The notes beneath the pieces are model-generated. The model worked only from the letters and a program-made list of their open reading frames with translations. It did no database searches and was not told the DNA's origin. Of a stretch of DNA of 44,447 nt, positions 127 to 35,387 are shown one piece after another. The number at the start of each line of letters is the position of its first letter. Position 1 is the first letter of the stretch. The translations under genes and the position numbers were made by a program. The stretch is from Cupriavidus gilardii J11 (GTDB lineage Bacteria > Pseudomonadota > Gammaproteobacteria > Burkholderiales > Burkholderiaceae). The stretch spans positions 1 to 44,447 of the forward strand of contig NZ_VLJN01000007.1 in the NCBI RefSeq assembly GCF_007829435.1, written 5' to 3'.

Positions 127-145
127 GCCTGTCTCAGGCATCGAC
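127..145 (+). promoter_or_regulatory. 5' hairpin motif copy 1 (GCCTG-tct-CAGGC + ATCGAC)
   Basis: Perfect 5-bp stem, 3-nt loop and the invariant ATCGAC 3' flank, 23 bases before the primase start. This copy has the most divergent stem of the nine in the window, yet it is fully paired. Just downstream, CTCC and GGAG (about 152-162) can pair so that the primase Shine-Dalgarno is covered. Confidence 0.6.
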
Positions 146-168
146 CAACCCTCCTCACGGAGCATCCC

Positions 169-1260
169 ATGAAAAATCTAAGTGCGATTGTAGGAAGCTG
201 GACGCCCGATCAATGGGACGCTCTGGTTCGGGAATATCTGCCCGCAAATTTTCTGACCGACGCCTTTTGGCGAGGACAGCCGGGGCCCTGTCCGATCTGC
301 CGTGGTGGAACGGATCGCTTCACCTACGACAACAAGCGCGGTCGCGGTGATTGGATCTGCCGCAAATGCAATGACGGAAGTCCCAAAGCGGGCGACGGCC
401 TCGAGCTGGTACGGTGCGTCACCGGCATGTCGTACCCGGAATTGATGCGGGACCTGGCTGGTGGAAAGGCTGAGTCGCTGCCGCGCCTGTCACCGCACCA
501 AGCCCGCCGAATCAAGGCTGATGATCCTGGTGCCAAGATGCGACGCATCCTCAGACAGTGGGAAGAAGGCGCCCAACTTTCAGCAGGCGACCATGCAATG
601 CGATATCTCGCTGCACGCGTGCCCGGCTTACGGGCCCCGCGACCGCAGAACCTCCGGCTCTCGGTGCAGGACTACTGGTACCGGAGCACAGGTTCAAAGC
701 AGCTGTTGAAAATCGGTCGATATCCGACCATCCTGGCTGGCTTCATGCTGCCGGACGGGCGGCTTGCGACGGTGCACCGTACCTCGCTCGATCCCGTGCT
801 GCCTGCAAAAGCGACGATCGTATCCAGCGACGGCGAAATCCTGCCGGCGAAGCGCAACGATGTATCCGCGCTGCCACTCGCCGGCGGGGCTGTTCGGCTC
901 ATGCAGCCTCGTGGCGGAGAAATTGGGGTGGCGGAAGGCCTCGAGAATGCCTACGCAGCGTACATGCTGTTCCGCATCCCCGCGTGGAACTGCCTGAACC
1001 GGGTACTGCTACGACAGTTCGTCGTGCCCGACGGGTTGGGTATCCACACCGTCCACATCTTCGCCGACTTCGACACGGTTGATCCGATAACGGGGAAATC
1101 GCCCGGCATGGCCGACGCGCTGGCGTTGGACAAGCGCTTGCGCACAGAGGGATTCAAGACAGTCATCCATCGTCCAAAGGTCCGCGGCACGGACTTTTGC
1201 GATCAGTGGCGCACCGAGTATCGGCTGCGTCAAATTGCTCCGCAGGCGATCGCCGCCTGA
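169..1260 (+). CDS. P4-type primase: zinc ribbon plus Toprim domain
   Basis: 363 aa. An N-terminal zinc ribbon of the phage P4 / plasmid primase type has Cys pairs at residues 41/44 (CPIC) and 64/67 (CRKC). The C-terminal half carries a Toprim fold with the catalytic Glu in VAEGLEN (about 256) and the metal-binding FADFD (about 299-303). By family knowledge it would make RNA primers for element replication. No helicase domain is fused, so it may use a host helicase or the UvrD-like protein encoded at 8.7 kb. The ATG at 169 is chosen because a GGAG lies about 7 bases upstream; a longer in-frame start at 109 would run through the regulatory hairpin. It is the first gene behind motif copy 1. Confidence 0.85.
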   Translation: MKNLSAIVGSWTPDQWDALVREYLPANFLTDAFWRGQPGPCPICRGGTDRFTYDNKRGRGDWICRKCNDGSPKAGDGLELVRCVTGMSYPELMRDLAGGKAESLPRLSPHQARRIKADDPGAKMRRILRQWEEGAQLSAGDHAMRYLAARVPGLRAPRPQNLRLSVQDYWYRSTGSKQLLKIGRYPTILAGFMLPDGRLATVHRTSLDPVLPAKATIVSSDGEILPAKRNDVSALPLAGGAVRLMQPRGGEIGVAEGLENAYAAYMLFRIPAWNCLNRVLLRQFVVPDGLGIHTVHIFADFDTVDPITGKSPGMADALALDKRLRTEGFKTVIHRPKVRGTDFCDQWRTEYRLRQIAPQAIAA

Positions 1261-1289
1261 TATCTGCCACCGAAGGGTGGCTTTCTAAC

Positions 1290-1350
1290 CTCTGCCCTGT
1301 GGGTCTCTCCCGCAGGGCAGGGATCCCGTGGCAGGCTCTCCAAGGAGAAC
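1290..1350 (+). promoter_or_regulatory. two-hairpin leader before the 69-aa gene
   Basis: A 12-bp hairpin (arms 1292-1303 and 1309-1320, one G-T pair) lies 34 bases before the next start and has no T-tract, so it is not a normal terminator. It is followed by a short hairpin (TCTC 1337-1340 with GAGA 1345-1348) that overlaps the GGAG Shine-Dalgarno. This is the same two-part layout seen before many genes here. Confidence 0.5.
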
Positions 1351-1354
1351 GCAG

Positions 1355-1564
1355 ATGCCGCATAAAGGTTTCACCGCAATCGTCAATAGACTGCACATTC
1401 ATGCCAAGCGTGTCTCGAACACGGCCGACGTCTGCGCCGGCCAGTCGGAGGCGCAGTTCTTCGACGTGTATCGGCGCGGTCCGGCCGGCAATCTCACGTT
1501 CCTGAATCGGATGCATTCTTTTGATTCAGCGCTTGATTTCTGTCTGTCGCCTACGCTTCATTGA
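1355..1564 (+). CDS. small hypothetical protein (69 aa)
   Basis: 69 aa, not recognised. It has no membrane segment or signal peptide; it is basic and His-rich at the N-terminus and ends in a mixed hydrophobic stretch. The ATG at 1355 follows GGAG at a spacing of about 7 bases, and the longer frame from 1328 would cut into the leader hairpin. It lies 94 bases after the primase, is probably in the same transcript, and is closed by a strong terminator at 1585-1614. The dedicated two-hairpin leader and the terminator are the main reasons to believe it is real. Confidence 0.55.
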   Translation: MPHKGFTAIVNRLHIHAKRVSNTADVCAGQSEAQFFDVYRRGPAGNLTFLNRMHSFDSALDFCLSPTLH

Positions 1565-1584
1565 GGTGCCATCCCATAAACGAC

Positions 1585-1614
1585 AAAGCCCGGCATACGC
1601 CGGGCTTTTTTTTT
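1585..1614 (+). terminator. intrinsic terminator after the primase set
   Basis: A 10-bp stem (AAAGCCCGGC with its complement, loop ATAC) is followed by nine Ts. A nearly identical hairpin occurs at 30014-30048. It separates this plus-strand set from the minus-strand genes ending at 1622. Confidence 0.85.
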
Positions 1615-1621
1615 CTCGCTT

Positions 1622-1747
1622 TCAGTTTCGGATGCGGTTCTTCAATGCGGCGTAGAGAGAGAGAACGCCCTCAAGTACGCAGAACCCGATGAGCACCATG
1701 GCAACGAAGCGTTGGATGCCATCGGCGGTAGAGAGGTAGTCGAACAT
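1622..1747 (-). CDS. 41-aa single-pass membrane peptide
   Basis: 41 aa, too short for most gene finders. Residues about 14-34 form one hydrophobic helix (FVAMVLIGFCVLEGVLSLYA), followed by a short basic tail. AAAGG lies about 7 bases before the ATG. It is 69 bases downstream of the ParR-like gene on the same strand and probably the last gene of that operon. No family is recognised; by size and shape it could be a toxin-like or membrane-anchoring peptide, but nothing in the sequence decides this. Confidence 0.5.
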   Translation of the reverse strand: MFDYLSTADGIQRFVAMVLIGFCVLEGVLSLYAALKNRIRN

Positions 1748-1816
1748 GGTGAGCCCTTTGTTTTGTGTGAGTTTAGATTGCCACGATACCCGGCGATGTC
1801 AAAACGGATGATCGCG

Positions 1817-2266
1817 CTAACCAAAGCGAGCCATCGCCTCGTTGAGGGCACCTACATCCAGCCCCTCCAGAGCCGCATGGCCGGTCGTGCCGGCGGCTTC
1901 GCTCGATAGCTGCCCCGGCAATGTGCCTCGATCGGCGGTGGCGGCGGGCGAAGTACTTATGGCTACCGGATAAGGAACGGCGACGGCTTCGCTTGGAGGG
2001 CGCCCCGGCGCCGGCATGCGGGGGGGCGATTCGGGCGAGGACACGGCAGCAACAGTGCCGGGGGGCAATCTAGAGACCCCGCCTGGAAGGAACAAAACGT
2101 CCGGCCCAGCGCTCGCCAACAGCTGCAGGCCACGTTGCGCGAGCAGCTTCAACATCATGGCGCGTTCCCGTGCTCCGCCGAACTGCTGCAGGTAAGCGAG
2201 CAACTCTGGATTGGAGTCGCCGGATATCGTCACAGACATCTGAAGCTTTACCACGGGCGTTGGCAT
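1817..2266 (-). CDS. ParR/StbB-like partition adaptor candidate
   Basis: 149 aa. Residues about 6-46 read like a ribbon-helix-helix DNA-binding unit: a short beta-strand (VKLQMSVTI), then a helix beginning NPELLAYLQQFGG, then a second helix ending LLAQRGLQLL. This order resembles ParR/StbB adaptors of actin-type partition systems. The rest is a Pro/Ala-rich low-complexity linker with a short helical C-terminal tail, as expected if the C-terminus touches the filament. Its ATG overlaps the stop of the actin-like PRTRC D gene by one base (TAATG), so translation is coupled, matching the ParM-ParR order. The family assignment rests on pattern and context, not on a clear match. Confidence 0.45.
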   Translation of the reverse strand: MPTPVVKLQMSVTISGDSNPELLAYLQQFGGARERAMMLKLLAQRGLQLLASAGPDVLFLPGGVSRLPPGTVAAVSSPESPPRMPAPGRPPSEAVAVPYPVAISTSPAATADRGTLPGQLSSEAAGTTGHAALEGLDVGALNEAMARFG

Positions 2267-3267
2267 TAGACAGTCCTTGCCGCCTGACGGGCGGATCCGA
2301 TGCTATAGAACCCGCGAACATTGGCAAAGCAGGGCGCCTCCATGATATGGATCGTATTCAATGGGAACGCCGCACGGATAGTCGGCGCATACAATTGCGC
2401 GCCGCCCCCTGTCAGGATAATGGCCCGGATATCCTCCGATCTGCCGACGCGGGTCTGGATCTCTTTCACCGGCTGGTGGGTTACCGCCATGGCTTGTTCA
2501 AGGTACGGGGTAACGTCGAGATCCCGGCCGTAGAACAGCATGGGCTTTGCATCGCGGATGGCCTTGTCAATGCGCTCGATGCTGTCAGTGGTCTGTCCGT
2601 GTTCAGCCGAAATGAGACTGGCGATCTGTTGATACACACGCGCCGCGCCACCAGGCACGCCGCCGCTGCGGGTATCGTCCATGGTGTAGCCGCGGGCCAC
2701 CACCCAATCGGTCGTGAAGTAACCGACGTCGACCACGAGATAAGCGTTGTCGGGATCGTAGCTCTTCCCGCTCCGCTGGATATACGTGATGAGGCTACCG
2801 AGCGGTTGCGGCAGGGGCAGAACGCTGCCGACGGTGATCTCGCCCCACCCGAAGTTGTGTGTGCCAGTGAAGCGGTCCTTCAGAAATGCGGCGTACCGGT
2901 TCGTGTTGTGAACGGGCAGACCGAGCACGAGACGGTCGACCTCGCGCGCATTGGCGTAGTGCAAGGAACCAGCGAGCAACGCAGCATAGTTTGCCGTAGT
3001 CACGAAATCTTCGGACAAGGACCGGCCGGTATGTACGTGCGCGGCGCTCAGGGAAACGCCGGGGCCAACCTCATACCTGGCACCGTCGACCTCTACGTTC
3101 ACCACGTCACGTGCACGAAAGAGCCCGCCGCCATGCGGTGTGAGCGAGGACGTGGCGGCCACGGGAGCCAACGACGGAAACATGTTGGTCGCGATATCAG
3201 AGCCGAGTGGAAAAGCGGACTTGGTATTGCCGTAGCCGACATCGATCGCGACGGTAGAGATTTTCAT
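2266..3267 (-). CDS. PRTRC system protein D, actin-like ATPase (ParM/StbA type)
   Basis: 333 aa. The N-terminal phosphate-1 loop DVGYGNTK (about 9-16), the phosphate-2 loop VDVGYFTTD (about 179-187) and the adenosine loop LTGGGA (about 285-290) are those of the actin/Hsp70 ATPase fold, in the plasmid-segregation branch. By family knowledge such proteins polymerise to push DNA copies apart. Start chosen at 3267 (MKIST...) because GGAG precedes it by about 7 bases; the open frame continues 40 codons upstream without that support. It is encoded apart from the other PRTRC genes, which start at 15.6 kb, and is coupled to a ParR-like gene. The window therefore holds both a ParB-type and an actin-type segregation component. 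Confidence 0.8.
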   Translation of the reverse strand: MKISTVAIDVGYGNTKSAFPLGSDIATNMFPSLAPVAATSSLTPHGGGLFRARDVVNVEVDGARYEVGPGVSLSAAHVHTGRSLSEDFVTTANYAALLAGSLHYANAREVDRLVLGLPVHNTNRYAAFLKDRFTGTHNFGWGEITVGSVLPLPQPLGSLITYIQRSGKSYDPDNAYLVVDVGYFTTDWVVARGYTMDDTRSGGVPGGAARVYQQIASLISAEHGQTTDSIERIDKAIRDAKPMLFYGRDLDVTPYLEQAMAVTHQPVKEIQTRVGRSEDIRAIILTGGGAQLYAPTIRAAFPLNTIHIMEAPCFANVRGFYSIGSARQAARTV

Positions 3268-3593
3268 GTAGCGCTCCAGTAAGCAGGGTGCATTAGTGGG
3301 TGCGACGTGCCTTCCTTCCGCATCGTCCATGCCAGCTCGGCCATCTGCCACATACTCAGACTTTGTGGCATTAAATCCGGGCCGCATGGATCAAGTTTTT
3401 TAAGGCCTGTTTCCATATCTAGGGCTCTATAAGACTTGAACGGACTTGACCGAACCATGTAGGGTCAAGTGGCACATCGACATGGCCTACTCTAACTGCA
3501 CTGTTCCAAAGTCAAGCCGACGAAAGCTCACGTTTTGGGGACTGCAGTCGTTGCGTGTACGGCGATGACTGGTATATCCTTCAGACACTTCAC
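3268..3593. other. gene-free upstream region of the partition operon
   Basis: About 330 bases without a convincing gene. Its left part should hold the minus-strand promoter for protein D. At the right end TTGCGT (3551-3556) and TATATC (3573-3578), 16 bases apart, look like a plus-strand promoter firing toward motif copy 2. Short open frames here have no ribosome binding site. Confidence 0.4.
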
Positions 3594-3711
3594 GCGTCCC
3601 CGACGCATCGACCTCGCCGCCACTCGCGCGGCACTCCTGTGCATCGAACGTCGACCAATTTGGCTTCGGGCTGCTCGCTGTTCACGCCGGAAATTGAACC
3701 GGCTTTTTTTT
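3594..3711 (+). ncRNA. candidate small RNA: motif copy 2 followed directly by a terminator
   Basis: Starts with the conserved hairpin (GCGTC-ccc-GACGC, 3594-3606) and ATCGAC (3607-3612), behind a promoter-like TTGCGT/TATATC pair. It ends at an intrinsic terminator: GCCGG (3686-3690) pairs with CCGGC (3699-3703), then eight Ts. No start codon with a Shine-Dalgarno lies between. It is either an independent RNA of about 120 nt or a leader whose gene has been lost. Confidence 0.4.
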
Positions 3712-4359
3712 CAATCAAATCAAGTGGACCGGTTCGGATAGTGAGGACACCGGACACCGCGATACCAAGCCGATTTGCGGTCTGTTTGTGAAAATGGACC
3801 GTAGTGCGGACGATTCCGAAGCCGGACACCGAACAGTTTTTTGGGGATCATCCGAAATACAGACGCTCCTTCAGCCATTGGGCTGGGCGCGGATCACGAT
3901 GCCCGACACACAGCGGCGGGGATGATCCGGCTTTGGAGCGGGAAGCTGCGCGGGCGGAATATCCGGCAACGCGGGCTTCTCAAGACTTCCGATCCGGGAG
4001 GCGCCACCGGTACCAGAACGGCGCAACAAGCAATCACCCATCACGACATTGACACAGGCGATAGGACGCGATCCTAGTTGCGGGTGTCAGCATCACAGGA
4101 TGCATCGGATAGGGTGGCCGCGCAGCGGCGTGCATGGCGAGAGCCTTGGACGCACACGGCGGACAGTCGGGAAGCATCGCTTCCATGCTCCGGGCTGATC
4201 GGTTGGCATCGCTAAAGGACAGGAAGGCAGTGGATGGACCGGCCGGGTGGGCCGGATAGCTGGGGGTGGTGCCCCGGCGCACCAAGGGGGCAGAGCCGCG
4301 TCGGGGGCGGGTCTGCCATCAAGCAGTCCCGTGAAGCGCAATAGCTCTAGATCGCCCTG
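3712..4359. other. gene-poor stretch, possible insertion-sequence remnant
   Basis: No supportable gene in about 650 bases. The left part (3733-3840) repeats TGGACCG twice and GGACACCG three times, spaced irregularly, as in the multiple terminal repeats of some insertion sequences (IS21-like ends come to mind). No transposase is present. The right part (4080-4359) contains GC-rich inverted repeats and could include the recombination site of the integrase that starts at 4360; I cannot define a core. Confidence 0.3.
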
Positions 4360-5508
4360 ATGAAGTCCATTAACCTGCGTCCGATCATTAACCAGTACAG
4401 CTTGCCCGAGCGGTTCAAAGCCGAGTTCGTCGTTCTGGCGATGGAGAAACTGCACCTCCCACACAGCGGTACCCGGGTTAGCGGCAGATCCCTCTCCCAG
4501 ATTTCGCAGCGCCAGCGTGTGCAGGCCCTACTTGCCATGTTTGTAGAGCTTCGAGGGAAGGGCGGCATGGCCGTCACCTCGCCGTACAACATCCGGCAGA
4601 AGCATGTCCGCTGGCTCGTGCAGCACTGGGTGTCATCCCGTGGGCTGAACGTTGGGACGGTCGAGCTGCGCCTGACCCATCTTCGGGCACTGATGGGATG
4701 GATGGGGAAGCCTAATGTGATCGGACGGATTGATGACTATGTCGAGCGGCCGGAAGGGTACGAGAGAAGCTATATCGCGCAGAAAGATCGGTCTTGGGAC
4801 GGAAATGGGATAGACGCGGTCGCCAAGATAGCCACGATTGCAGCCACGGATCCGCACGTCGCGCTCCAGCTGCGCCTGGAAGCGGCCTTCGGTCTGCGGG
4901 CAAAGGAAAGCTGGCGGCTGCGGCCCGCGTTCGACGTGCTTCCCTCTGGGATGCTGTTTGTCCACGACGGAACTAAGGGCGGGCGGCCGCGCCAGGTGCC
5001 CATCGAATTCGGCTGGCAGTACGAGCTACTGGCTGAGGCTGCAGCGCTGGCAGCGACGACGAACCCGGAGAGGGGGACTCTCATACCGGCTACGTTCACG
5101 CAGAATCGCTGGCGACGCCGCTTCTATACTGTCTTGGAGAAGTACGGCATCACGAGATCCGGAGACGGCGTAACGGCGCACGGGTTGCGCCACCAGTACC
5201 TTCAAGAGATGTATCAACGCGAGAGCGGTCAGCATGCCGCGGTGAAGGGTGGCGGCCCGGTCCTCAATGTGGAAGCACACCGGGAGGCAATGCGCAAGGT
5301 GGTTGAGGCAGCCGGGCACAGTCGCGCGACGAAGGCGAATGCCTATCTCTCGACGTATTCGACACAGCTTTCACTGAGGAGCCCTGACCCAACCTTGGCA
5401 GAGGTCCGCGCTGCGATTGACAATGCTCAGGGCAATAAATCGGTGGCGGCCCGGGAACTTGGCATTTCGAGGGCAAAGATGTATCGACTACTCGGAAGTG
5501 ACCTATAA
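4360..5508 (+). CDS. tyrosine recombinase/integrase with C-terminal Fis-like HTH
   Basis: 382 aa. A SAM-like N-terminal domain (about 30-130) precedes a tyrosine recombinase catalytic domain: Arg in AAFGLRAKES (about 179), the Lys beta-hairpin HDGTKGGRPRQVPI, His and Arg in AHGLRHQY (about 272-276), a later His in AAGHSRAT and the Tyr in NAYLSTY (about 328). All key residues appear present, so it should be active. Residues about 345-382 add a helix-turn-helix of Fis/NtrC C-terminal type (NKSVAARELGISRAKMYRLL), unusual for an integrase, which may help choose a site or self-regulate. No clear Shine-Dalgarno precedes the ATG. A downstream convergent operon begins 156 bases later. Confidence 0.8.
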   Translation: MKSINLRPIINQYSLPERFKAEFVVLAMEKLHLPHSGTRVSGRSLSQISQRQRVQALLAMFVELRGKGGMAVTSPYNIRQKHVRWLVQHWVSSRGLNVGTVELRLTHLRALMGWMGKPNVIGRIDDYVERPEGYERSYIAQKDRSWDGNGIDAVAKIATIAATDPHVALQLRLEAAFGLRAKESWRLRPAFDVLPSGMLFVHDGTKGGRPRQVPIEFGWQYELLAEAAALAATTNPERGTLIPATFTQNRWRRRFYTVLEKYGITRSGDGVTAHGLRHQYLQEMYQRESGQHAAVKGGGPVLNVEAHREAMRKVVEAAGHSRATKANAYLSTYSTQLSLRSPDPTLAEVRAAIDNAQGNKSVAARELGISRAKMYRLLGSDL

Positions 5509-5664
5509 GGTTGAATTCACGAGCGCCCTGCTACTTCACGTCGACGCGGCCTCGGTGCCGGCCCGCAAACGGACATCCTGCCAGATGGTGACCGCAGGGT
5601 AGCGCATGGACACCCTGAAAGGGCAACGCCCGCAGAAGGCAGGCGCCAGCAAGAGAGAGAGAAG

Positions 5665-6932: not shown

Positions 6933-6979
6933 TGTGAAGGGCCTCGGGAGATTGGTGGTCGGCGAGCGTAGCGCTCCAC

Positions 6980-11308: not shown

Positions 11309-11327
11309 GCGCTTTCAGCGCATCGAT
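11309..11327 (+). promoter_or_regulatory. 5' hairpin motif copy 3 (GCGCT-ttc-AGCGC + ATCGAT)
   Basis: Perfect 5-bp stem with a stem sequence different from the majority copies but still fully paired, then ATCGAT. It heads the transcript for the 69-aa membrane protein and the methylase-like gene. Confidence 0.6.
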
Positions 11328-11357: not shown

Positions 11358-11404
11358 CCCATTGGGGCTTTCCCAATGGGACGGCTCCAATTTTCTTTGG
11401 AGCC
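11358..11404 (+). promoter_or_regulatory. two-hairpin leader with sequestered Shine-Dalgarno
   Basis: First hairpin: CCCATTGGG (11358-11366) pairs with CCCAATGGG (11372-11380), 9 bp. Second hairpin: GGCTCC (11383-11388) pairs with GGAGCC (11399-11404), so the GGAG Shine-Dalgarno of the TTG start at 11409 is fully paired. Confidence 0.6.
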
Positions 11405-15217: not shown

Positions 15218-15450
15218 TTTTTGGCCTCCCACTTTCGTTCCGGCACTCAGCGTTCTAGTACAGTCCTCCCGGACGATAATAGATGTCGCGTGCTAGGTGT
15301 CAACTTCATGATCGGGAGCGGGGGAGGAGAGCAAGCTGGCCCTTAGACTCCGCACTTCCGACAGCTGAGGCGATCGTAAGCGCAACCTTGCTTTGCCGGC
15401 CCTGGCTTGATTTATGAGATGCCTTTAGAGTATCCTCATGCCGATCTAAA
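15218..15450. promoter_or_regulatory. divergent control region of the lipoprotein pair and the PRTRC operon
   Basis: About 230 bases with no gene. On the plus strand TTGATT (15407-15412) and TATCCT (15431-15436), 18 bases apart, form a plausible promoter. The -10 ends 14 bases before motif copy 4. The minus-strand promoter for the lipoproteins must also lie here, probably near the AT-rich stretch around 15270-15290. Confidence 0.4.
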
Positions 15451-15469
15451 GCGCCCAAGGCGCATCGAC
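15451..15469 (+). promoter_or_regulatory. 5' hairpin motif copy 4 (GCGCC-caa-GGCGC + ATCGAC)
   Basis: Perfect 5-bp stem with a third distinct stem sequence and a different loop, then ATCGAC. It heads the PRTRC transcript, 126 bases before parB. Confidence 0.6.
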
Positions 15470-15509: not shown

Positions 15510-15594
15510 GCCGGACGGTCTTTCTATCACCCCATCGGGAACCACGTTCCCGGTGCGGCAACGGGTTCCCCATTCATCCTCGGAGAACCCACAA
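15510..15594 (+). promoter_or_regulatory. PRTRC leader hairpins
   Basis: A 7-bp hairpin CGGGAAC-cac-GTTCCCG (about 15536-15552) is followed by GGGTT and AACCC (about 15564-15590), which enclose the CGGAG Shine-Dalgarno of parB in the loop. No T-tract follows either. Confidence 0.5.
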
Positions 15595-18024: not shown

Positions 18025-18073
18025 ACTCATGAAGGCACTGTCCAGCGGAGAGTTTGCCGCCATCAACCAAGAG

Positions 18074-18097
18074 CCGCCCGGAAGGGCGGTTTTTTTT
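18074..18097 (+). terminator. intrinsic terminator inside the PRTRC operon
   Basis: CCGCCC (18074-18079), GGAA loop, GGGCGG (18084-18089), then eight Ts. It lies between C and F, with a GAGGAG ribosome binding site starting only about 5 bases after the T-tract. It would attenuate the distal genes unless bypassed. Confidence 0.8.
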
Positions 18098-21479: not shown

Positions 21480-21498
21480 GCGTCACCGACGCATCGAC
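21480..21498 (+). promoter_or_regulatory. 5' hairpin motif copy 5 (GCGTC-acc-GACGC + ATCGAC)
   Basis: Perfect stem and flank. TAACAT (21461-21466) ends 13 bases upstream and is a candidate -10. It heads the lipoprotein transcript. Confidence 0.6.
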
Positions 21499-21531: not shown

Positions 21532-21581
21532 CCACGGGCCATCCTGCCCGTGGGCATGTTGGCCATTTTTTATCGAGGCCA
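21532..21581 (+). promoter_or_regulatory. two-hairpin leader of the glycine-zipper lipoprotein
   Basis: CCACGGGC (21532-21539) pairs with GCCCGTGG (21546-21553), 8 bp. Then TGGCC (21560-21564) pairs with GGCCA (21577-21581), covering part of the GAGG Shine-Dalgarno three bases before the ATG. Confidence 0.55.
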
Positions 21582-21583
21582 TC

Positions 21584-22057
21584 ATGTTCCTGCGTTTCTT
21601 CCTGCTTTTCCTTTGCTGCGTCGTCTTCACGGGCTGCGCTGCGCAACAAACGTCTCCGAACGTGTATCGCAGCCCGGAGGCACTTCGTCCCGGGAATGCG
21701 GAATCTGTGACGGTGATCCGGGTTCGCCCTGTCACCATTTCCGATAGCGGCGGAATGATGTCTGCAAGCACCGGCGTTCCGGGTGTCCTCGGAGCAGTAG
21801 TTGGCGCCGTTCTCGGTGCGCGTGTCATTGGCAGCGGTAATGGCCGCTATATTGGCGGCGCACTGTCGGGCACCGCATCGGCGGTAATTGCGCAGACCGC
21901 AGCGAACTACATGAGCAAGCGCGACGGCGTGGAGGTCATTGTCCGCACGGACGGTGGGCGCCAGGTGGTCGTCACGCAGGACGCCGATCAACACTTTGTC
22001 TCCGGCGAACGCCTGTATCTCGTCTCTGGGTCGGGTGGCTACCGGCTGACTCGCTGA
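21584..22057 (+). CDS. lipoprotein with glycine-zipper 2TM segment (SlyB/17-kDa-antigen-like)
   Basis: 157 aa. Lipoprotein signal MFLRFFLLFLCCVVFTGC with acylated Cys at 18. Residues about 63-105 form a Gly/Ala-rich zipper (GVPGVLGAVVGAVLGARVIG, then YIGGALSGTASAVIA), as in SlyB/Rick_17kDa outer-membrane lipoproteins. The C-terminal 45 residues form a small beta domain (VEVIVRTDGGRQVVVTQDAD), also typical of that family. Likely located in the outer membrane, where it could alter envelope stability or surface exclusion; the latter is only a guess from its place in a mobile element. GAGG precedes the ATG by about 5 bases. Confidence 0.75.
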   Translation: MFLRFFLLFLCCVVFTGCAAQQTSPNVYRSPEALRPGNAESVTVIRVRPVTISDSGGMMSASTGVPGVLGAVVGAVLGARVIGSGNGRYIGGALSGTASAVIAQTAANYMSKRDGVEVIVRTDGGRQVVVTQDADQHFVSGERLYLVSGSGGYRLTR

Positions 22058-22544: not shown

Positions 22545-22592
22545 AGCCTAAGAGGGCTTGCCCAACCCCGGAGGGTTCGGCAAGTCGCTTTT
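22545..22592 (+). terminator. hairpin ahead of motif copy 6
   Basis: CTTGCC (22557-22562) with GGCAAG (22579-22584), and inside it AACCC with GGGTT, then GTCGCTTTTA. This is a plausible weak terminator of the preceding set just before the next 5' motif. Confidence 0.45.
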
Positions 22593-22596
22593 ACCC

Positions 22597-22615
22597 GCGT
22601 CATTGACGCATCGAC
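22597..22615 (+). promoter_or_regulatory. 5' hairpin motif copy 6 (GCGTC-att-GACGC + ATCGAC)
   Basis: Perfect stem and flank. It heads the gene set starting at 22700. No clear -10 is visible at the usual distance. Confidence 0.6.
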
Positions 22616-22647
22616 CCAAAGTCCGGCAGCGCTGGACTAACCCATTG

Positions 22648-22699
22648 CGGGACACTCGTCCCGTAGGGGAGGGATGTCCCCAGCTATCCGAGGATATCC
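22648..22699 (+). promoter_or_regulatory. leader hairpin before the 127-aa gene
   Basis: CGGGAC (22648-22653) pairs with GTCCCG (22658-22663), 6 bp with loop ACTC. Further on GGAT (about 22672) can pair with ATCC (22696-22699), enclosing the GAGGA Shine-Dalgarno. Confidence 0.45.
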
Positions 22700-23083
22700 A
22701 TGAAACTCCCCAAATCTTTTCTTCCTAGTACCTCGTTCGTACGGCCAGCAGCCTGCCAGACGGTGCGCAGGGACGCTTGCCGCCTGCTGAGGCGAGTCGC
22801 GTCCGACATGGCCTTGCGACGACGCGACTACACCATCCGGCAACACAGCCATCGGAGAAGCCGCGTGGAGGTCTTCGCTTTGCAGACCGACGCTCTGCTC
22901 GTTGAGATTCAGCATGCAGATGGTGCCGCCGGCGGTGTCCGGATGTCGTACCGAACTTGCCGTGGCCGTGGCGATCTCGCCGGCGGCCGTGGCAACTCGG
23001 TCAACGTCAAAGCGCTTGCGACCGACCAAGGCTACGCAGACCTGCTTTCCACCCTCCGGGTGGTGGCGGGGCGGCGCGGCTAG
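22700..23083 (+). CDS. hypothetical basic protein (127 aa)
   Basis: 127 aa, very Arg-rich, not recognised. After a basic N-terminal region it has a small beta-rich stretch (RVEVFALQTDALLVEIQHAD) and a Gly/Arg-rich region (CRGRGDLAGGRGNS). The pI and composition suggest nucleic-acid binding. GAGGA lies about 4 bases before the ATG. It is the first gene of the set behind motif copy 6 and is followed after 11 bases by a membrane protein. Confidence 0.5.
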   Translation: MKLPKSFLPSTSFVRPAACQTVRRDACRLLRRVASDMALRRRDYTIRQHSHRRSRVEVFALQTDALLVEIQHADGAAGGVRMSYRTCRGRGDLAGGRGNSVNVKALATDQGYADLLSTLRVVAGRRG

Positions 23084-23667: not shown

Positions 23668-23737
23668 GTGATTCTTGGTCCATAAACGACTGGTTTTCTT
23701 CCCCCGTCAGGGGCCGATCTAGTAGGCTCAACGCATG

Positions 23738-23764
23738 AACGCACCCTCCGGGGTGCGTTTTTTT
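23738..23764 (+). terminator. intrinsic terminator
   Basis: AACGCACCC and GGGTGCGTT (9 bp, loop TCCG) followed by a T-tract (about seven Ts from 23758). It lies 60 bases before the next plus-strand gene, which has no separate 5' motif. Confidence 0.8.
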
Positions 23765-23792
23765 CTTTCTCACCCCTTTGGGAGCCGTCCCG

Positions 23793-25862: not shown

Positions 25863-26017
25863 TTTGCTCCCTTGGCCGAGAGGCCAGGGGACGTTTCTTC
25901 GAAACACGCACCGAAACAGTGAGCTTTCCGGACCGCCAACAGTGCGGGTTCGCATAACCTTAGATCAATGAAGCTGTGTTTGCACTGGTAAGAATCAGTC
26001 CAAACACTGTTTCACCC

Positions 26018-26036
26018 GCGTCGTAGACGCATCGAC
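26018..26036 (+). promoter_or_regulatory. 5' hairpin motif copy 7 (GCGTC-gta-GACGC + ATCGAC)
   Basis: Perfect stem and flank, heading the MoxR/DUF3150/VWA set. TTGCAC (25980-25985) is a possible -35. Before it (25863-25980) only a GGCC-centred hairpin without a T-tract is seen and no gene. Confidence 0.6.
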
Positions 26037-26071
26037 CCCAACGCCGGCATGCCGGCTATCTCTTGAACCTC

Positions 26072-26127
26072 CCCACAGGGACCATCCCTGGGGGGACGGC
26101 CTGTGGGATCTTCATTCGGAACATCCC
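26072..26127 (+). promoter_or_regulatory. MoxR leader with alternative hairpins
   Basis: CAGGGA-cca-TCCCTG (26076-26090) forms a local hairpin. Alternatively CCCACAGG (26072-26079) pairs with CCTGTGGG (26100-26107), 8 bp. A third pairing, GGGAT (26105-26109) with ATCCC (26123-26127), encloses the CGGA ribosome binding site. The three overlap, so only some combinations can exist together. Confidence 0.5.
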
Positions 26128-27153
26128 ATGCAAGTCAATCCTTCCCAGTTGCAAACGCTGCTGGCCGCCTGCATTCCAGCAGGGCTGCCAGTCCTAGTGA
26201 CAGGTGCTCCCGGCATCGGTAAGAGCGATATCGTTGCGCGCGCAGCCGATGAGGCTCGACACGAACTGCTGATCTCCCATCCGGTCGTGGAGGATCCGAC
26301 CGACTCGAAAGGCTTGCCTTTTCCGTCGTCGGATGGCGCTAACGCCCGCTTTCTGCCTTTCGGTGACCTGGAGCGGGCACTGTCGGCGCGCCGGCCCACC
26401 GTATGGTTCATTGATGATCTCGGACAGGCCGCACCGGCGGTTCAGGCGGCCAAGATGCAGTTGTTGCTGGCCCGCAGGATCGGTGAACACGTCCTGCCAC
26501 CACACGTGACATTCGTTGCGGCGACGAACCGCCGTACCGACAACGCGGGGGTATCCAACATCCTCGATCCGCTGAAATCTCGTTTTGCGACGATCGTGGA
26601 GCTCACCACATCAATCAACGATTGGACGAAGTGGGCCGTGGCGACGAATCAGCCGCCGGAGCTCATAGCGTTCCTGCGTTTTCGTCCGGATCTTCTGCTG
26701 TCCAGTGAGAAGACTCGCGAGATCGAGAATCGTGAAAGCCCACGTACGTGGGGGAATGTAGGCAAGCTCACCGGTGTCGTGCCGCCGAGCCTAGAGCAGG
26801 TGGCTTTCGCCGGCGCCGTCGGCGAGGCGGCGGCCACGGAGTTCGTCGCCTTCAAGCGCCTGTTCAGCGAGATGCCGTCCCCCGATGGGGTTCTTGCGGC
26901 GCCGGCGACCGCACCAATTCCGACCAACGTCGCCGTCCAGTACGGTCTTGTCACCGCACTGGCGCGCCTTGCCAACCCGAGTAACTTCGATCGGGTCATG
27001 GTCTATGCAACGCGACTCCACGAAGCCGGCCTCGGCGAATTCGCCGTGCTGCTGGTGCGTGACGCCGTCGAGCGGGAGCCCGCCATCGTAAGCACTCCGG
27101 CGTTCATCACAGCACAGGGTGGCCCGATCGGCGTCCACATCCGAGGCGGCTGA
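26128..27153 (+). CDS. MoxR-type AAA+ ATPase
   Basis: 341 aa. AAA+ core with Walker A GAPGIGKS (about 26-33), Walker B VWFIDDLGQA (about 92-101), sensor-1-like VAATNRR and an Arg in LKSRFATIVE. MoxR ATPases usually sit beside VWA-domain proteins and act as chaperones for metal insertion or complex assembly. Here a DUF3150-like gene and a metallopeptidase/VWA gene follow. The C-terminal 140 residues are an unrecognised helical domain. The CGGA site 8-11 bases before the ATG is weak and falls within the leader hairpin. Confidence 0.8.
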   Translation: MQVNPSQLQTLLAACIPAGLPVLVTGAPGIGKSDIVARAADEARHELLISHPVVEDPTDSKGLPFPSSDGANARFLPFGDLERALSARRPTVWFIDDLGQAAPAVQAAKMQLLLARRIGEHVLPPHVTFVAATNRRTDNAGVSNILDPLKSRFATIVELTTSINDWTKWAVATNQPPELIAFLRFRPDLLLSSEKTREIENRESPRTWGNVGKLTGVVPPSLEQVAFAGAVGEAAATEFVAFKRLFSEMPSPDGVLAAPATAPIPTNVAVQYGLVTALARLANPSNFDRVMVYATRLHEAGLGEFAVLLVRDAVEREPAIVSTPAFITAQGGPIGVHIRGG

Positions 27154-29505: not shown

Positions 29506-29646
29506 TCGTTGCCCATGTTCGCTTACCGACTTAGGACTTGGACGCCGCGGTGGTGGCTGCCTGTGGACCTACCCCAAATCCCATGTAGGCGGTATCGGAT
29601 AGGCATCGGTCTGAGTCGAGCACCCTGGCAGCGGGCGGAGCTACGT

Positions 29647-30012: not shown

Positions 30013-30013
30013 C

Positions 30014-30048
30014 AAAAAGCCCGGCATATGCCGGGCTTTTTGTTTTTT
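30014..30048. terminator. bidirectional terminator
   Basis: A 12-bp stem (AAAAAGCCCGGC with its complement, loop ATAT), A-tract on the left and T-tract on the right. It separates the plus-strand gene ending at 30012 from the minus-strand bactofilin operon. It shares the stem of the terminator at 1585. Confidence 0.85.
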
Positions 30049-30093
30049 CGAAAGGCGCGAATATATCGGCCCCTTTTCGACGGCAAGTCAATA

Positions 30094-30483: not shown

Positions 30484-30492
30484 CGTGCGTTC

Positions 30493-31089: not shown

Positions 31090-31091
31090 GT

Positions 31092-31706
31092 TCAGTCCTT
31101 GTAGGCGGAGGAGGCCTGTGTCGACAATCGGCTGCCGTCTGGGGCAAACTTGTCGTTGCCCGGAATGCAGAGAAGGTGAATCTGCGATATCAGCTTCGCC
31201 GCCCTGCGGAGGGTATCTTCCCGCTCGCTTCCGGAAACCGAGCCAGCTGCGTTGCAGAACATCGTGGACGCGAACAGACGGTCGTACAGTCGAACAAGTC
31301 TGAGCAGGCGGCCGGCAAACTGGTGTGTCACCTTGACGTGGATCTCCATGTAGGCGAGCGGGAACTCGATCTGATGGCGTTCAGCGAAGTTCGCTATCGC
31401 CGTGGCGTACCAGGACTCCGCTTCCCGGAACGCTTCATCGATCGCCTTTACCTTTCCACCTCGAGCCACAGTGAACTTCGCGGAGCAGAAGTACAGGTTG
31501 GCGTCGAGAAAATCCCTAGCAAACCTGGAGCAGTACGAGGCCACGGCCCCCGTATCTGTATGCGGAACGATGCGTGACAGGCGTTCATCACTGTTAAACC
31601 TGTCGATGGGCCGCAGTCCAGCGGCCGCCGCGGCGCTTGCGCTTAGGACTGATCCTTTTGGCAACCCTCGATCGATCGCTGGTTCGATGTGCGAATCTTC
31701 AGCCAT
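31092..31706 (-). CDS. AcaB/DUF1845-like (PFL_4669-type) ICE protein
   Basis: 204 aa. The segment FLDANLYFCSAKFTVARGGK (about 67-86), then IEFPLAYMEIHVKVTHQFAGR and LLCIPGNDKFAPDG, recalls the family known as integrating conjugative element protein PFL_4669 (DUF1845/AcaB). This is from memory of the family's pattern and needs a profile search. AcaB-like members are ribbon-helix-helix regulators in some elements. ATG 31706 is preferred (first residues MAEDSHIEP); the ribosome binding site is weak (GGAAA). It is the first gene of the bactofilin operon. If regulatory, it is one candidate controller for the element's transcripts. Confidence 0.45.
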   Translation of the reverse strand: MAEDSHIEPAIDRGLPKGSVLSASAAAAAGLRPIDRFNSDERLSRIVPHTDTGAVASYCSRFARDFLDANLYFCSAKFTVARGGKVKAIDEAFREAESWYATAIANFAERHQIEFPLAYMEIHVKVTHQFAGRLLRLVRLYDRLFASTMFCNAAGSVSGSEREDTLRRAAKLISQIHLLCIPGNDKFAPDGSRLSTQASSAYKD

Positions 31707-31845
31707 TTTTCCATGTTTTGACGGTCTCTCTCGGCTGCAATTGTGGACGACCCCTTCGCGGTATTTTTTGGCGAAAGCTATACGAAAATTGCGAGGATTC
31801 GGTCTATTCGCGCGATTCTGGCGTGCCACAATTCATTCACACCTC

Positions 31846-31864
31846 GCGTCTCCGACGCATCGAC
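31846..31864 (+). promoter_or_regulatory. 5' hairpin motif copy 8 (GCGTC-tcc-GACGC + ATCGAC)
   Basis: Perfect stem and flank. CACAAT (31827-31832) ends 13 bases upstream as a candidate -10. It heads a 660-base leader-rich stretch before the RDF-like gene. Confidence 0.6.
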
Positions 31865-31917
31865 CCTGACTCCTTGCGAGTCCATCTGCTGCTTCAAGTC
31901 GTGCTACAAGCGCACGC

Positions 31918-31980
31918 GCCGACCGGTTGGCTACCGGTGTGGAAATTCCTTGTGATAAGTGTTTTCGCCGAGCACTTCCC
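31918..31980 (+). promoter_or_regulatory. leader hairpins after motif copy 8
   Basis: ACCGGT-tggct-ACCGGT (about 31921-31937) forms a 6-bp hairpin. AAGTG (about 31957) and CACTT (about 31973) form a second hairpin four bases before the ATG at 31981. This mirrors the two-hairpin leaders of the other sets. Confidence 0.4.
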
Positions 31981-32109
31981 ATGTCAGCTCGTAAAACGCG
32001 TCTATCGCTGTGCCTCGTCGCGAGTGCACGCGTGACACTGTTCGAGCCCAGGACCATGTGGCGTCTCTCTCTAAGGCCCCTCCTAGGCAGAACAGCCGTC
32101 GTTGGCTGA
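31981..32109 (+). CDS. possible small protein (42 aa)
   Basis: 42 aa, very basic, with a mid hydrophobic stretch (LSLCLVASARVTLF). Not recognised. Support is mostly contextual: the ATG sits exactly where the leader layout predicts a gene after motif copy 8. A CGAG lies about 10 bases upstream, but the ribosome binding site is poor, so it may be non-coding leader. Confidence 0.3.
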   Translation: MSARKTRLSLCLVASARVTLFEPRTMWRLSLRPLLGRTAVVG

Positions 32110-32507
32110 CCCGTGATTCCTGCGGTGGACGGTATGTCCAAAATGGGTTGTTGTGCAGCGTGAACCTGCTGCACGAGGACGACTTTACGTCCTCAGCATG
32201 AGCGCCGCGCTTCGTCGCGCGCTGCTCCCTGTGTGCCACGCCCCCGGAAGGGGCGTGGCATTGCAGGTATCTCGACAAAGCTCGCTTTCCGGCGCATCCG
32301 GGACGCGGGCTTTTTTTGTCTTCTGACCCGGATCTCGCCGCTAAGGTGGCACCCCTTGGCCAGTCTCATCCGCAGCCGCGAATGAAGGATGGTCTGTCTA
32401 CAACCAAGCGACCCAGCGCCGGGCGGACTCAGCCTCGGCGCCCTGAGGGCCATGCTGCGTCACTCCCGGGGCAACGTCCTTTCGTTTCCCACCGACAGGA
32501 GGAAAGC
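32110..32507 (+). promoter_or_regulatory. leader and terminator region before the RDF-like gene
   Basis: About 400 bases without a convincing gene. It contains an 11-bp hairpin (TGCCACGCCCC 32234-32244 with its complement at 32250-32260, loop CGGAA, no T-tract) and a terminator (next entry). Between the terminator and the gene only GC-rich repeats are seen. Confidence 0.4.
32280..32318 (+). terminator. intrinsic terminator before the RDF-like gene
   Basis: Arms 32280-32292 and 32298-32310 pair over 12 positions with one mismatch and two G-T pairs, then seven Ts. Transcripts from motif copy 8 must pass this to reach 32508. Confidence 0.65.
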
Positions 32508-33803
32508 ATGCATGCTCCCATCACCTACAACGGCTTCGACGGTCCAAGCGGCCCCAGAAGCCTGCTCGATGAACGGCCCCTGCGGCCACCAATCATCGGC
32601 ACCATTCGGCCAGGCATCAAAGTCCTCACGCGCAAGGCCCGAGACAATGCTGAGGCGGTCCGGATCCACGACGCGATGCTGGCCCAAGGCCATTCGTTCG
32701 AGAAGATCGGCGCGGAGATTGAGCGCAAAACAAACCTCCGCAATCCGCTGGTCCCAAAGAACGTGCCGTGGTTCACGTGCCGCGGCTCGGACTTCACGAA
32801 CCCCGCCATCGCCGACGATATCCTACAGCGCTACGGCGAGGACCGAGGAGACGGCAACGGCCACCGGCTCTGGCGCTTCCCGGTCGTGTTTGCGTTCGAC
32901 GACTGGTTGCAGAACATGCCGAACGAGCTAGTTACCTACGCGGCCAGCGGAAAGAAGTATTTTTCCGAGTACGGCCACGACGGCTTGCGCTACTGCAAGA
33001 CGTACGGTGCCGTGCCGCGTGATGAGCGGGCTAGCCGTGCGAAGCGCGTCTGGGGTGGCCGCCCGATCATCCTTCGCCAGGACGCCGAGATTCCGGATGG
33101 ACGGTGCGACCCGCATCGCTGCCCCCAGTATCAGAAAGGCGAATGCAACCTGTCAGCGTCGTTCTATTTCGCCATCCCGGAGAGCCGGGGCCTGGGACTG
33201 ATTAGGATGCCGACGACATCGATCTACGTCTTGCAGAAGGCACACGCTGCCATGCAAACCGTGGCGCTTGCACGAGGCCGGTTGGTTGGCGTGGAATTCA
33301 CGATCGGCAAGCAGGAAGTCGAGATCAGTCGGATCGATCCGGAGTCCGGGCAGCCAGTACGCCAGAAGCAATGGCTTATTACGCTCGATGCGGATCTGGA
33401 CATGGCGGGCCTACTGGATGGTACTGAGCGGGCGCGGCTGCAGCACTTCGAGAGCGCCTGCGAGGCCGTCGCAACGCTCGAGGGCGCGCAAGAGCCGCAG
33501 AACGACTGGGATGATGAGCCAACGACGGAGCGGCACGTTCCGACTGATATTGGCCCCGAAGTTCTGCCTGATGAGGGCTTGCGAGCTGCCTTTGACGATG
33601 CGGCTAGCCGCTTAGGGTTCCACGAGAGCGAGCAAGCTCAGCGCGAACTCCGCGTATTCCTCAAGGAAAGCTACGGGGAAGGGTGGACGAGCCGTCCTGC
33701 ATCGATTCGGCAGATCGTAAAGGACATGCGGACCGCCTTGGCTAACAACCCCAACGCGTACCGCGAGCAGGCCAGAGCCGTGGCTGCGGACCTGTCTTCC
33801 TAA
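32508..33803 (+). CDS. recombination directionality factor-like protein
   Basis: 431 aa. The first 300 residues (RPPIIGTIRPGIKVLTRKA early on, then TCRGSDFTNPAIADDILQRYG and a Cys/His cluster CDPHRCPQYQKGEC at about 203-216) match proteins annotated as recombination directionality factor-like or 'hydrolase or metal-binding protein' in plasmids and ICEs. The Cys/His cluster suggests a bound metal. RDFs steer serine or tyrosine integrases toward excision; whether this one does is unproven. The C-terminal quarter is acidic and helical. AGGAGG lies about 8 bases before the ATG at 32508. The SbcD-like gene follows 95 bases later. Confidence 0.6.
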   Translation: MHAPITYNGFDGPSGPRSLLDERPLRPPIIGTIRPGIKVLTRKARDNAEAVRIHDAMLAQGHSFEKIGAEIERKTNLRNPLVPKNVPWFTCRGSDFTNPAIADDILQRYGEDRGDGNGHRLWRFPVVFAFDDWLQNMPNELVTYAASGKKYFSEYGHDGLRYCKTYGAVPRDERASRAKRVWGGRPIILRQDAEIPDGRCDPHRCPQYQKGECNLSASFYFAIPESRGLGLIRMPTTSIYVLQKAHAAMQTVALARGRLVGVEFTIGKQEVEISRIDPESGQPVRQKQWLITLDADLDMAGLLDGTERARLQHFESACEAVATLEGAQEPQNDWDDEPTTERHVPTDIGPEVLPDEGLRAAFDDAASRLGFHESEQAQRELRVFLKESYGEGWTSRPASIRQIVKDMRTALANNPNAYREQARAVAADLSS

Positions 33804-33828
33804 GGACCAGTTTGCCGCTGGCCTTCAA

Positions 33829-33875
33829 TGCGGGCGCCTTCGGGCGTCCGTTTCATTTTCGCCGGCCCTGGCCGG
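33829..33875 (+). promoter_or_regulatory. intercistronic hairpins before the SbcD-like gene
   Basis: GGGCGCC-ttc-GGGCGTCC (about 33833-33850) forms a 7-bp hairpin with one G-T pair, followed by a loose T run. GCCGGCC-ct-GGCCGGC (about 33860-33875) is a second perfect inverted repeat. Confidence 0.45.
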
Positions 33876-33898
33876 CAGATTCCCTTATCGGAGGTTCT

Positions 33899-35305
33899 AT
33901 GGACAAAGAGGACGCAGGCCTGCGTCTGGGTCACTTTTCTGATCTGCATTACTCACCGGCTCATCTCGCGGAAGCGGACCGTTGCTTCGGCTTCGCGGTC
34001 GATCACGCGATCGCTGCCGGCTGCCGCGTTGGTGTGGTGTCGGGAGACTCCACTGACCACCGTCTAGATGCGCACACTCCCGCGCTCGCGGCGCTCGCCC
34101 GGCGCATCCACCAGTTGTCGGCCCACATGCCAGTGCTGATGTTGCAGGGCACATTCAGTCACGAGCCCCCGGGGACGTTGGACATCTTCGCCCTCATCGG
34201 AGAGCGACATCATGTCTACATTGCGGACCGGACTCATCAAGTTGCGCTCTGCGGCGGCGCGTTTGTACCTTCGGCGCACGCGGTTTTCACGTTGACCGAG
34301 CTTCACCAGCTCATCGCTGATGAGGGCACGCCAGACGTGGTATTCACCTGCGTACCCACTGTCAACAAGGCGGTACTGGCGTCGGCGGTGGGGGTGGCAA
34401 ATGCCGCTACCGCGGTCGGGGATCACCTTGGAGCCTACTTGGCGGCCGCGGGCGTCATCAATCAGCAGCTGCGGCATATGGGAATCCGGACAGTCGGGGT
34501 TTCACATGGCACGGTGAACGGCTGTCAGACCGAGCACGGCGTGCCGATGGCGGGCTTTGACCACGAGTTTACGATCGGCGCGCTATTTGAAGCTCATTGC
34601 GATGCGTTCATGCTCGGCCATATTCACCGCAGCCAGCAGTGGGAGCGTGAAGGACGAGTGGTCGCGTATCCCGGCTCTATCGGACGTTTCCACTACGGCG
34701 AGATCGGGGAGAAGGGCTACCTTCAGTGGCAGGTGAGTCCGGGCTCTGCGTCGGCTTCGTTGGTGCCCACGCCGGCTCGCGAGACGATCTGCCTCGACTT
34801 CGACGGGCCGCCGGATATGGAGCGCCTGTCGCAGACTGCCAGGGGATCTGCCGACAAGTTCGTTCGCGTTCGGTGGACGGTCAATGAGGAACATCGTCAG
34901 CTGGTCGACCGGGAAGCGATTGCAGCGCTTTTCAGCAAGGCCGCGGAGCTGAAGATCGAAGCGCGAGTGCTTCCAGCCGTGCGCAGCCGAGCCGAAGGCA
35001 TTTCCCGAGAGTCAAGCCTGCCGGAGAAGCTGGCCAGGTGGGGCGAGCTGACCGCTGTGGATACCAATCCGCTGGTGGAAAAACTGACCTTGCTGCAGAT
35101 GCTCGACCCGCAGTCGATAGCTGATGGCGTGCTGGCGCAACTGCACCAGACCGATGCCCGGTTGCCGGTTGCCCACGTTGATGAACATGCTGATCGACCG
35201 AATGTGCCCGTGCAACAGGATGCTGTCGCTGAACCTGTTCCGCTGGCGCACGGTGAGAGCGTGGACTGGCTCGCGGACGACATTTTTGCGGAAGCGTCCG
35301 CCTAA
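33899..35305 (+). CDS. SbcD/Mre11-like metallophosphoesterase with altered motif III
   Basis: 468 aa. Calcineurin-like nuclease motifs: DLH in HFSDLHYS (about 15-17), SGDSTDH (about 48-54), a later SHG (about 202-204) and GHIH (240-243). The usual GNHD/E is replaced by QGTFSHE (about 83-89), so the catalytic Asn-His pair is not in its normal form and activity may differ. The C-terminal 200 residues include a helical capping region. It should partner the SbcC-like ATPase two genes downstream to process DNA ends or hairpins. GGAGG lies about 6 bases before the ATG. Confidence 0.75.
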   Translation: MDKEDAGLRLGHFSDLHYSPAHLAEADRCFGFAVDHAIAAGCRVGVVSGDSTDHRLDAHTPALAALARRIHQLSAHMPVLMLQGTFSHEPPGTLDIFALIGERHHVYIADRTHQVALCGGAFVPSAHAVFTLTELHQLIADEGTPDVVFTCVPTVNKAVLASAVGVANAATAVGDHLGAYLAAAGVINQQLRHMGIRTVGVSHGTVNGCQTEHGVPMAGFDHEFTIGALFEAHCDAFMLGHIHRSQQWEREGRVVAYPGSIGRFHYGEIGEKGYLQWQVSPGSASASLVPTPARETICLDFDGPPDMERLSQTARGSADKFVRVRWTVNEEHRQLVDREAIAALFSKAAELKIEARVLPAVRSRAEGISRESSLPEKLARWGELTAVDTNPLVEKLTLLQMLDPQSIADGVLAQLHQTDARLPVAHVDEHADRPNVPVQQDAVAEPVPLAHGESVDWLADDIFAEASA

Positions 35306-35368
35306 CCATTGAACATGCAAGCCATGTTCCGACAGCCATAGGGGTTGTCGAAACCCGGTTTCACCCCC

Positions 35369-35387
35369 GCGTCATTGACGCATCGAT
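35369..35387 (+). promoter_or_regulatory. 5' hairpin motif copy 9 (GCGTC-att-GACGC + ATCGAT)
   Basis: Perfect stem and ATCGAT flank. It heads the set with the SbcC-like gene. A CGACA/TGTCG hairpin lies just before it. Confidence 0.6.

Follow-up and report, generated by a model that had tools for sequence, protein, structure and literature searches.

The window analysed here, the whole 44,447-nucleotide (nt) stretch from contig NZ_VLJN01000007.1 of Cupriavidus gilardii J11, carries the backbone of a PRTRC plasmid. NCBIfam matches above the cut-off identify ParB, F, A, ThiF and D, and the other genes encode a primase zinc domain, AAA, VWA, a Gp3-like protein and SbcCD-like proteins. Among plasmid relatives of the window's ParB, the best 20 all belong to Cupriavidus. 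Distributed along this backbone are nine copies of a small element that we term P1-AUCGA, a hairpin (P1) of 4–6 base pairs (bp) with a loop of 3–5 nt, followed by AUCGA.

All nine plus-strand positions listed in a preliminary description of this DNA were recovered, each with a perfect 5-bp stem, a three-base loop and ATCGAC or ATCGAT. Its statement that the copies keep to one strand also held: no copy lies on the minus strand and no tenth copy of the same form occurs in the window, against a chance expectation of 0.12 copies per window and a maximum of 2 in 50 second-order Markov sequences. The stem tally agreed as well, with GCGTC/GACGC in six copies and GCCTG/CAGGC, GCGCT/AGCGC and GCGCC/GGCGC in one each. 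The GCGTC form occurs six times in the 4.88-Mb genome, always inside the window, and a search of that genome with model R1 returned all nine copies and, from a different contig, a single weak match (E 7e-4). The three-base loop is true of the window copies and not of the family as a whole, in which relatives have loops of 4–5 nt and stems of 4 or 6 bp. Loop variation, described earlier as free, is constrained to the extent that P1 loops are poor in G in a sequence logo of 149 non-redundant sites (<90% identical).

Pairing was assessed in a stem-blind scan that scored only ATCGA and its flanks, with a flank matrix derived from perfect-stem sites and with orthologs that are not independent. All 132 distinct sites with a flank score of at least 8 were able to form the hairpin, 125 of them as the perfect 5-bp, 3-nt form. 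The seven imperfect sites comprised four GCGC-N4-GCGC stems, two G-U closures and one site (L085 14764) that keeps four pairs below an open A x C at the closing position. Uncompensated stem breakage, which the preliminary description had named as evidence against an RNA structure, was limited to that single strong-flank site, and three of the 17 sites scoring 6–8 had no hairpin; the other 14 had one. Below 6, hairpins were in the minority, and the weaker-flank sites added 4-nt loops and one 6-bp stem. In alignment A1, whose 57 rows had been pre-selected as hairpins, so that the stem-blind scan is the less biased test, 99.6% of pairing cells were paired compared with 91.9% in shuffles, and three of the five stem pairs changed on both sides. 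From these comparisons of sequence, P1 is well supported as an RNA hairpin, and selection acts on its pairing.

The gene runs behind P1 are rich in intrinsic terminators. Terminators were counted in internal gaps of at least 20 nt in seven named plasmids (11 loci, window excluded), a P1-led run being defined as extending to the next opposite-strand gene. They were found in 41 of 94 gaps in P1-led runs and in 5 of 89 gaps in other runs of the same plasmids (p 1.4e-9); counted by gap family, the figures were 25/51 and 4/76 (p 9e-9). Among short gaps (20–110 nt), 20 of 61 in P1-led runs contained a terminator compared with 1 of 53 elsewhere, and in 16 of those 20 the stem ended 18–27 nt before the next start codon, a spacing that leaves no room for a new promoter. 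Four PRTRC plasmids devoid of P1 had terminators in 3 of 66 gaps and in none of 32 short gaps. Of the P1-bearing elements inspected, which number nine with the window counted, all contained an intrinsic terminator in the gap between PRTRC C and F; three plasmids lacking P1 had none there. These internal terminators and the ribosome-site hairpins described below, which together hold most of the functional information, had been missed in the preliminary description.

Two P1 copies head RNAs that meet a terminator before any gene. In the gap between PRTRC D and the integrase gene, all four plasmids compared by eye had P1 followed by a conserved terminator, at a distance of 92 nt in the window. 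The second precedes, by approximately 270 nt, the sbcD RNA (RF01757), and seven of seven elements, judged by eye with Rfam run on three, showed the order P1, sbcD region, terminator-like hairpin (T-run at +446 to +475) and gene. The sbcD RNA is seen as a segment of a P1-led transcript of approximately 470 nt ending at a conserved terminator. In the window, these two copies are those at 3594 and 31846.

The logo of the 149 sites places P1 in a promoter register, with a weak TTG near -42, TAnAAT from -18 to -13, then P1, ATCGA and CC. G is scarce from -6 to 0, and position -6 is A or T; if transcription began there, P1 would fall at roughly nucleotide +7. The preliminary description had placed a -10-like hexamer before several copies and the hairpin at the very 5' end of each mRNA. 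The 5' placement is supported by the register between -10 and hairpin that the 149 sites share, and both statements suit five of the nine window copies (3594, 11309, 15451, 21480 and 31846), in which the best TATAAT match 10–16 nt upstream is 4 of 6. At 22555–22596, 25975–26017 and 35325–35368, before three of the remaining copies, there is a hairpin together with either a U-rich stretch or a small A/T palindrome (AAACNNNGTTT, for instance), a combination also seen in the counterparts on other plasmids; it is possibly a processing site or a weak terminator. Published data bear on one relative: in its available portions, a study of pMOL28 (PMC7563307) reports no TAnAAT consensus, and another holds 5,763 start sites for strain CH34 (PMC9045368).

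Leaders were examined in 201 P1 sites (hairpin, GCATCGA, flank score of at least 2), of which 127 had a recognisable start codon, 120 of them within 170 nt; these 120 form 23 clusters. In 101 of the 120, three or four of the four ribosome-site bases were paired. In annotated plasmids, 41 of the 46 genes that come first after P1 had a paired ribosome site, compared with 137 of 246 other genes (p 1e-5). Many leaders follow the order P1, AUCGAC, P2, a pyrimidine stretch, P3 and P4. In P3 the apical strand, X (GGGAACC, for example), is the complement of Y (GGTTCCC), which forms the 5' side of P4 and there also lies opposite the ribosome-site strand GGAGAACC. With 101 of the 120 leaders parsed, some of them misparsed (e.g. 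groups 2, 3, 10 and 12), the X:Y pairing within 15 leader groups was -10.2 kcal/mol compared with -6.6 +/- 0.6 kcal/mol after permutation, and 0 of 5000 permutations reached it in each of 30 draws; the initial automatic extraction, with several leaders misparsed, had given 1 in 20000. Primase leaders consist of P1 and a single tiny hairpin, with no P3.

Table 1. Features of the window associated with P1-AUCGA, in coordinates of the 44,447-nt stretch.
Coordinates	Strand	Feature	Basis
127..145	+	P1 GCCTG-N3-CAGGC + ATCGAC, upstream of primase-helicase zinc-domain gene	sequence scan
151..162	+	CTCC-N4-GGAG hairpin over primase-gene ribosome site (ATG at 169)	similar design in orthologs, leader clusters 11, 13, 20, 21
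3594..3612	+	P1 + ATCGAC, between PRTRC D (-) and integrase-like gene (4357-5505)	
3686..3711	+	Conserved intrinsic terminator, ~90 nt past P1, upstream of integrase-like gene	
11309..11327	+	P1 GCGCT-N3-AGCGC + ATCGAT	
11358..11380	+	P3 hairpin; strand X 11362-11368, able to pair with Y	
11383..11404	+	P4 hairpin over ribosome site; Y 11383-11390	
15431..15436	+	-10-like TATCCT, 14 bp before P1; TTGATT 18 bp upstream	register in 149 sites
15451..15469	+	P1 GCGCC-N3-GGCGC + ATCGAC, PRTRC ParB operon	
15530..15558	+	P3 hairpin; X GGGAACC 15537-15543	
15563..15590	+	P4 hairpin, ParB ribosome site; Y GGTTCCC 15564-15570 opposite GGAGAACC	
18071..18097	+	Intrinsic terminator, PRTRC C/F gap; stem end 26 nt before F (18118)	
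21480..21498	+	P1 + ATCGAC, glycine-zipper gene	
21532..21586	+	P3 21532-21553, P4 21559-21586	
22597..22615	+	P1 + ATCGAC, without clear promoter, downstream of another hairpin	
22647..22702	+	P3 22647-22664, P4 22672-22702	
23737..23767	+	Intrinsic terminator within P1-led gene run	
26018..26036	+	P1 + ATCGAC, without clear promoter, upstream of AAA/VWA genes	
26043..26130	+	P2 26043-26056, P3 26068-26099, P4 26102-26130	
31846..31864	+	P1 + ATCGAC heading sbcD RNA transcript	
32119..32270	+	sbcD RNA RF01757	Rfam match, 131 bits
32280..32317	+	Conserved intrinsic terminator, 3' of sbcD RNA, 5' of Gp3-like and sbcCD-like genes	
35369..35387	+	P1 + ATCGAT, without clear promoter, downstream of another hairpin	
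35410..35466	+	P3 35410-35436, P4 35438-35466	

One further region of the window lies between a terminator and the integrase-like gene: 3712–4355, approximately 650 nt of non-coding DNA with GGACACCGGACA-like repeats. By eye, both pHG1 and pMOL28 keep this region and B. ubonensis keeps part of it; it is perhaps an origin or a structured RNA.

The element is shared by related plasmids. The exact form GCGTCNNNGACGCATCGA occurred 43 times in 8 of 13 PRTRC plasmid records, on one strand per record: those of C. pauculus, pMOL28, pHG1, Paraburkholderia PGU19, P. dioscoreae, Caballeronia NK8, B. cenocepacia and B. ubonensis. A search confined to that exact stem found none in the more distant PRTRC records of Undibacterium, Xanthomonas, P. 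nitroreducens, Methylomonas and Rhizorhabdus. In the first three plasmids compared, P1 copies stood at places orthologous to those of the window. Of 60 genomes from the genus, 34 carried the pattern GCGTCNNNGACGCATCGAY, as did 71 of 299 from the family, compared with 0 of 60 and a single occurrence in 299 for the reversed control pattern; some single matches are probably due to chance. A wider contig scan gave at least 117 matching stretches; among the matches listed, flank scores above 6 were restricted to Burkholderiaceae and most matches in other groups had no flank. Spread beyond the family was rejected: R1 matched 31 of 149 other genomes of the order (E <= 1e-3), and the five inspected, the strongest matches (L219–L223), look coding, three of them resembling nusA starts. 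A phage origin was likewise rejected, the exact string being present on 23 viral contigs and a strong flank on none of them (best score 2.1). Three similar viral contigs of less than 5 kb (L235, L236 and L247) carry GCGTCNNNGACGCATCGAC and then another small hairpin, without the plasmid flank. By eye, the leader of an Undibacterium PRTRC ParB gene (L094 5549–5920) also has P2, P3 and X:Y-like complementarity, and a hairpin takes in its ribosome site. The hairpin in first position, however, reads GAGC-N4-GCTC and has AAGC behind it in place of AUCGA; a second copy of this hairpin variant was not leader-like.

Rfam returned no match above the gathering score over P1 or the leaders in the window and five loci; the matches that passed were sbcD (window, L048 and L087) and ncS54 (L084), neither of them over P1. 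The ncS54 match (RF02871, a Burkholderia sRNA; L084 6205–6288, minus strand) lies just upstream of a P1 site with a GCGC stem and a 4-nt loop. Among the matches listed, open-access literature on PRTRC, pMOL28 start sites, sbcD RNA, processive antitermination and Cupriavidus antitermination contained no description of P1-AUCGA, and GACGCATCGAC was absent from the listed literature matches to the motif letters.

A 5' hairpin common to mRNAs and non-coding RNAs, in front of operons cut by terminators, resembles a processive antitermination element. The two features expected of one were found: P1 stands at the transcript start, as judged by promoter consensus only and with four of nine window copies lacking it, and terminators lie inside the operons. 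We tentatively read P1-AUCGA, at a little under even chances, as a short RNA element that occupies the first ~25 nt of many backbone transcripts in a family of Burkholderiaceae PRTRC plasmids and serves terminator read-through, with a translation layer formed by P4 and X:Y. In this mechanism, extruded P1 would modify the RNA polymerase that is transcribing it, either by itself or together with a factor from the host or the plasmid; the modified polymerase would cross the intrinsic terminators between operon genes, and stray transcripts not begun at a P1 promoter would halt at the first one. In the second layer, P4 would hide the first gene's ribosome-binding site. Where the leader is long, X in P3, a mimic of the ribosome-site strand, would compete for the partner Y and make the leader a switch. 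The sequences themselves show P1 as a conserved RNA hairpin set at a common distance from a -10 consensus, the P4 hairpins, the match of X to Y and the excess of terminators behind P1; both the read-through caused by P1 and the trigger of the X:Y switch are what we infer. The fullest form of this reading, in which the ~25-nt element is a plasmid-wide antitermination password, perhaps acting directly on host RNA polymerase and coupled to a ribosome-site switch with a Shine–Dalgarno-mimic strand, so that only polymerases from the plasmid's own P1 promoters cross the terminators before internal genes, is possible and somewhat doubtful.

Several observations weigh against terminator read-through. 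The association of P1 with terminators is a correlation between sequence features, and, because P1-led runs were defined up to the next opposite-strand gene, a number of the terminators in them may mark genuine ends of transcripts, with other promoters following. The copies at 127, 22597, 26018 and 35369 match TATAAT at only 3, 2, 3 and 3 of 6 positions and have no clear -10; the last three of them are intergenic, just behind another hairpin. A strict general promoter scan missed all nine copies and listed fewer sites than it did in shuffled sequence. In A1, whose rows were chosen beforehand as hairpins, 17 and 27 of 500 shuffles reached the observed value for two of the five covariation measures, and the invariant GC..GC with AUCGA is compatible with recognition by any RNA-binding protein. 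No NusG paralogue was found on eight P1 plasmids, though the host could encode one, and no antitermination protein was identified, no search with ConAn1 having been made. Pfam searches of conserved unknown proteins gave no RNA-binding lead.

Known systems offer partial parallels. The HK022 put RNA, ~70 nt with two long stem-loops, lets RNA polymerase read through terminators with no dedicated protein needed and, like P1, stands at the start of early transcripts, putL being modelled from nucleotide 3 (PMC9378689). P1 is far smaller, a 13-nt hairpin plus AUCGA, repeated nine times in the window and plasmid-borne, which also counts against the read-through reading, and the primase leaders, with their one tiny hairpin, lack the put architecture. 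The conAn system of Gram-positive conjugative plasmids (PMC8955417) shares a plasmid operon with many internal intrinsic terminators (>20 inside the pLS20 operon) and an RNA component at its start; it differs in that the protein ConAn1 is the processivity factor and a conjugation operon the target, whereas P1 stands at many Burkholderiaceae backbone runs with no protein partner known. An RfaH/ops-type system needs a NusG paralogue on the element, which none of the eight P1 plasmids carries. The sbcD RNA family RF01757 lies within one P1-led transcript, in the order P1, ~270 nt, sbcD RNA, terminator and sbcCD-like genes; the Rfam match is confined to the middle of that transcript, and no other P1 leader is matched. 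In phage lambda, the nut site presents a small hairpin and a short linear box in the nascent RNA, with boxA preceding boxB. P1 is similar in combining a hairpin with a linear box and different in placing AUCGA after the hairpin, in its loose loop and in having no N-like protein identified.

The same 5' position, conserved sequence and hairpin, and the ribosome-site hairpins behind P1, would also suit a post-transcriptional tag. Such a stem-loop would either shield the RNA or be bound by one RNA-binding protein of the plasmid or the host, and would thereby coordinate stability or translation across the plasmid regulon, with the terminators between genes merely lowering distal expression. Copies without a promoter could then become 5' ends through cleavage in the U-rich stretch before P1. 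We regard this explanation as unlikely, though worth keeping in view; it leaves unexplained why terminators are concentrated in P1-led runs and end 18–27 nt before start codons, and why there are RNAs headed by P1 that run into a terminator ahead of the following gene. If P1 were instead part of a riboswitch-like leader that senses a ligand or protein and sets X:Y against P4, and hence translation, the specificity of X:Y complementarity to each leader group would follow. However, P1 is also found on primase mRNAs, which have a tiny P4 and no P3, and on the sbcD RNA, so its shared job cannot be the switch alone, and we consider such a role improbable.

A role in DNA fares less well. A palindromic 13-mer with an invariant flank at gene starts could serve a plasmid regulator as its operator within the initially transcribed region, and AcaB/DUF1845-type and FlhC-type regulators are annotated on some P1 plasmids; FlhC-family regulators lie, each behind a large hypothetical protein, at L225 26731–27909 and L228 9783–10985 on two of them. 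An operator is nevertheless highly improbable, since P1 tolerates G-U closures, two-sided stem changes and changes in half-site spacing (loops of 3, 4 or 5), keeps one orientation per record and has no clear promoter at four window copies. The preliminary preference for RNA structure over a DNA operator is upheld by the same G-U pairs and by relatives whose stems are compensated or whose stems and loops differ in length. Action as single-stranded DNA, for instance in lagging-strand priming or early expression of the strand entering in conjugation, would account for the restriction to one strand per record and for the SSB and primase genes in runs behind P1. The common -10 register, the placement before genes and the ribosome-site hairpins, which make sense only in RNA, leave it a very slight likelihood.

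The terminator read-through reading, if true, would explain how these large plasmids can hold their backbone silent to stray host transcription and still express long operons from their own promoters. P1-AUCGA is a candidate for a minimal RNA antiterminator, testable by a simple reporter. It is present in the much-used plasmids pMOL28 and pHG1, and start-site data sets are available for one of the two. The sbcD RNA would take its place as one transcript of a larger regulon, and a compact antitermination system would govern the backbone of Gram-negative plasmids, including textbook examples such as pMOL28 and pHG1.

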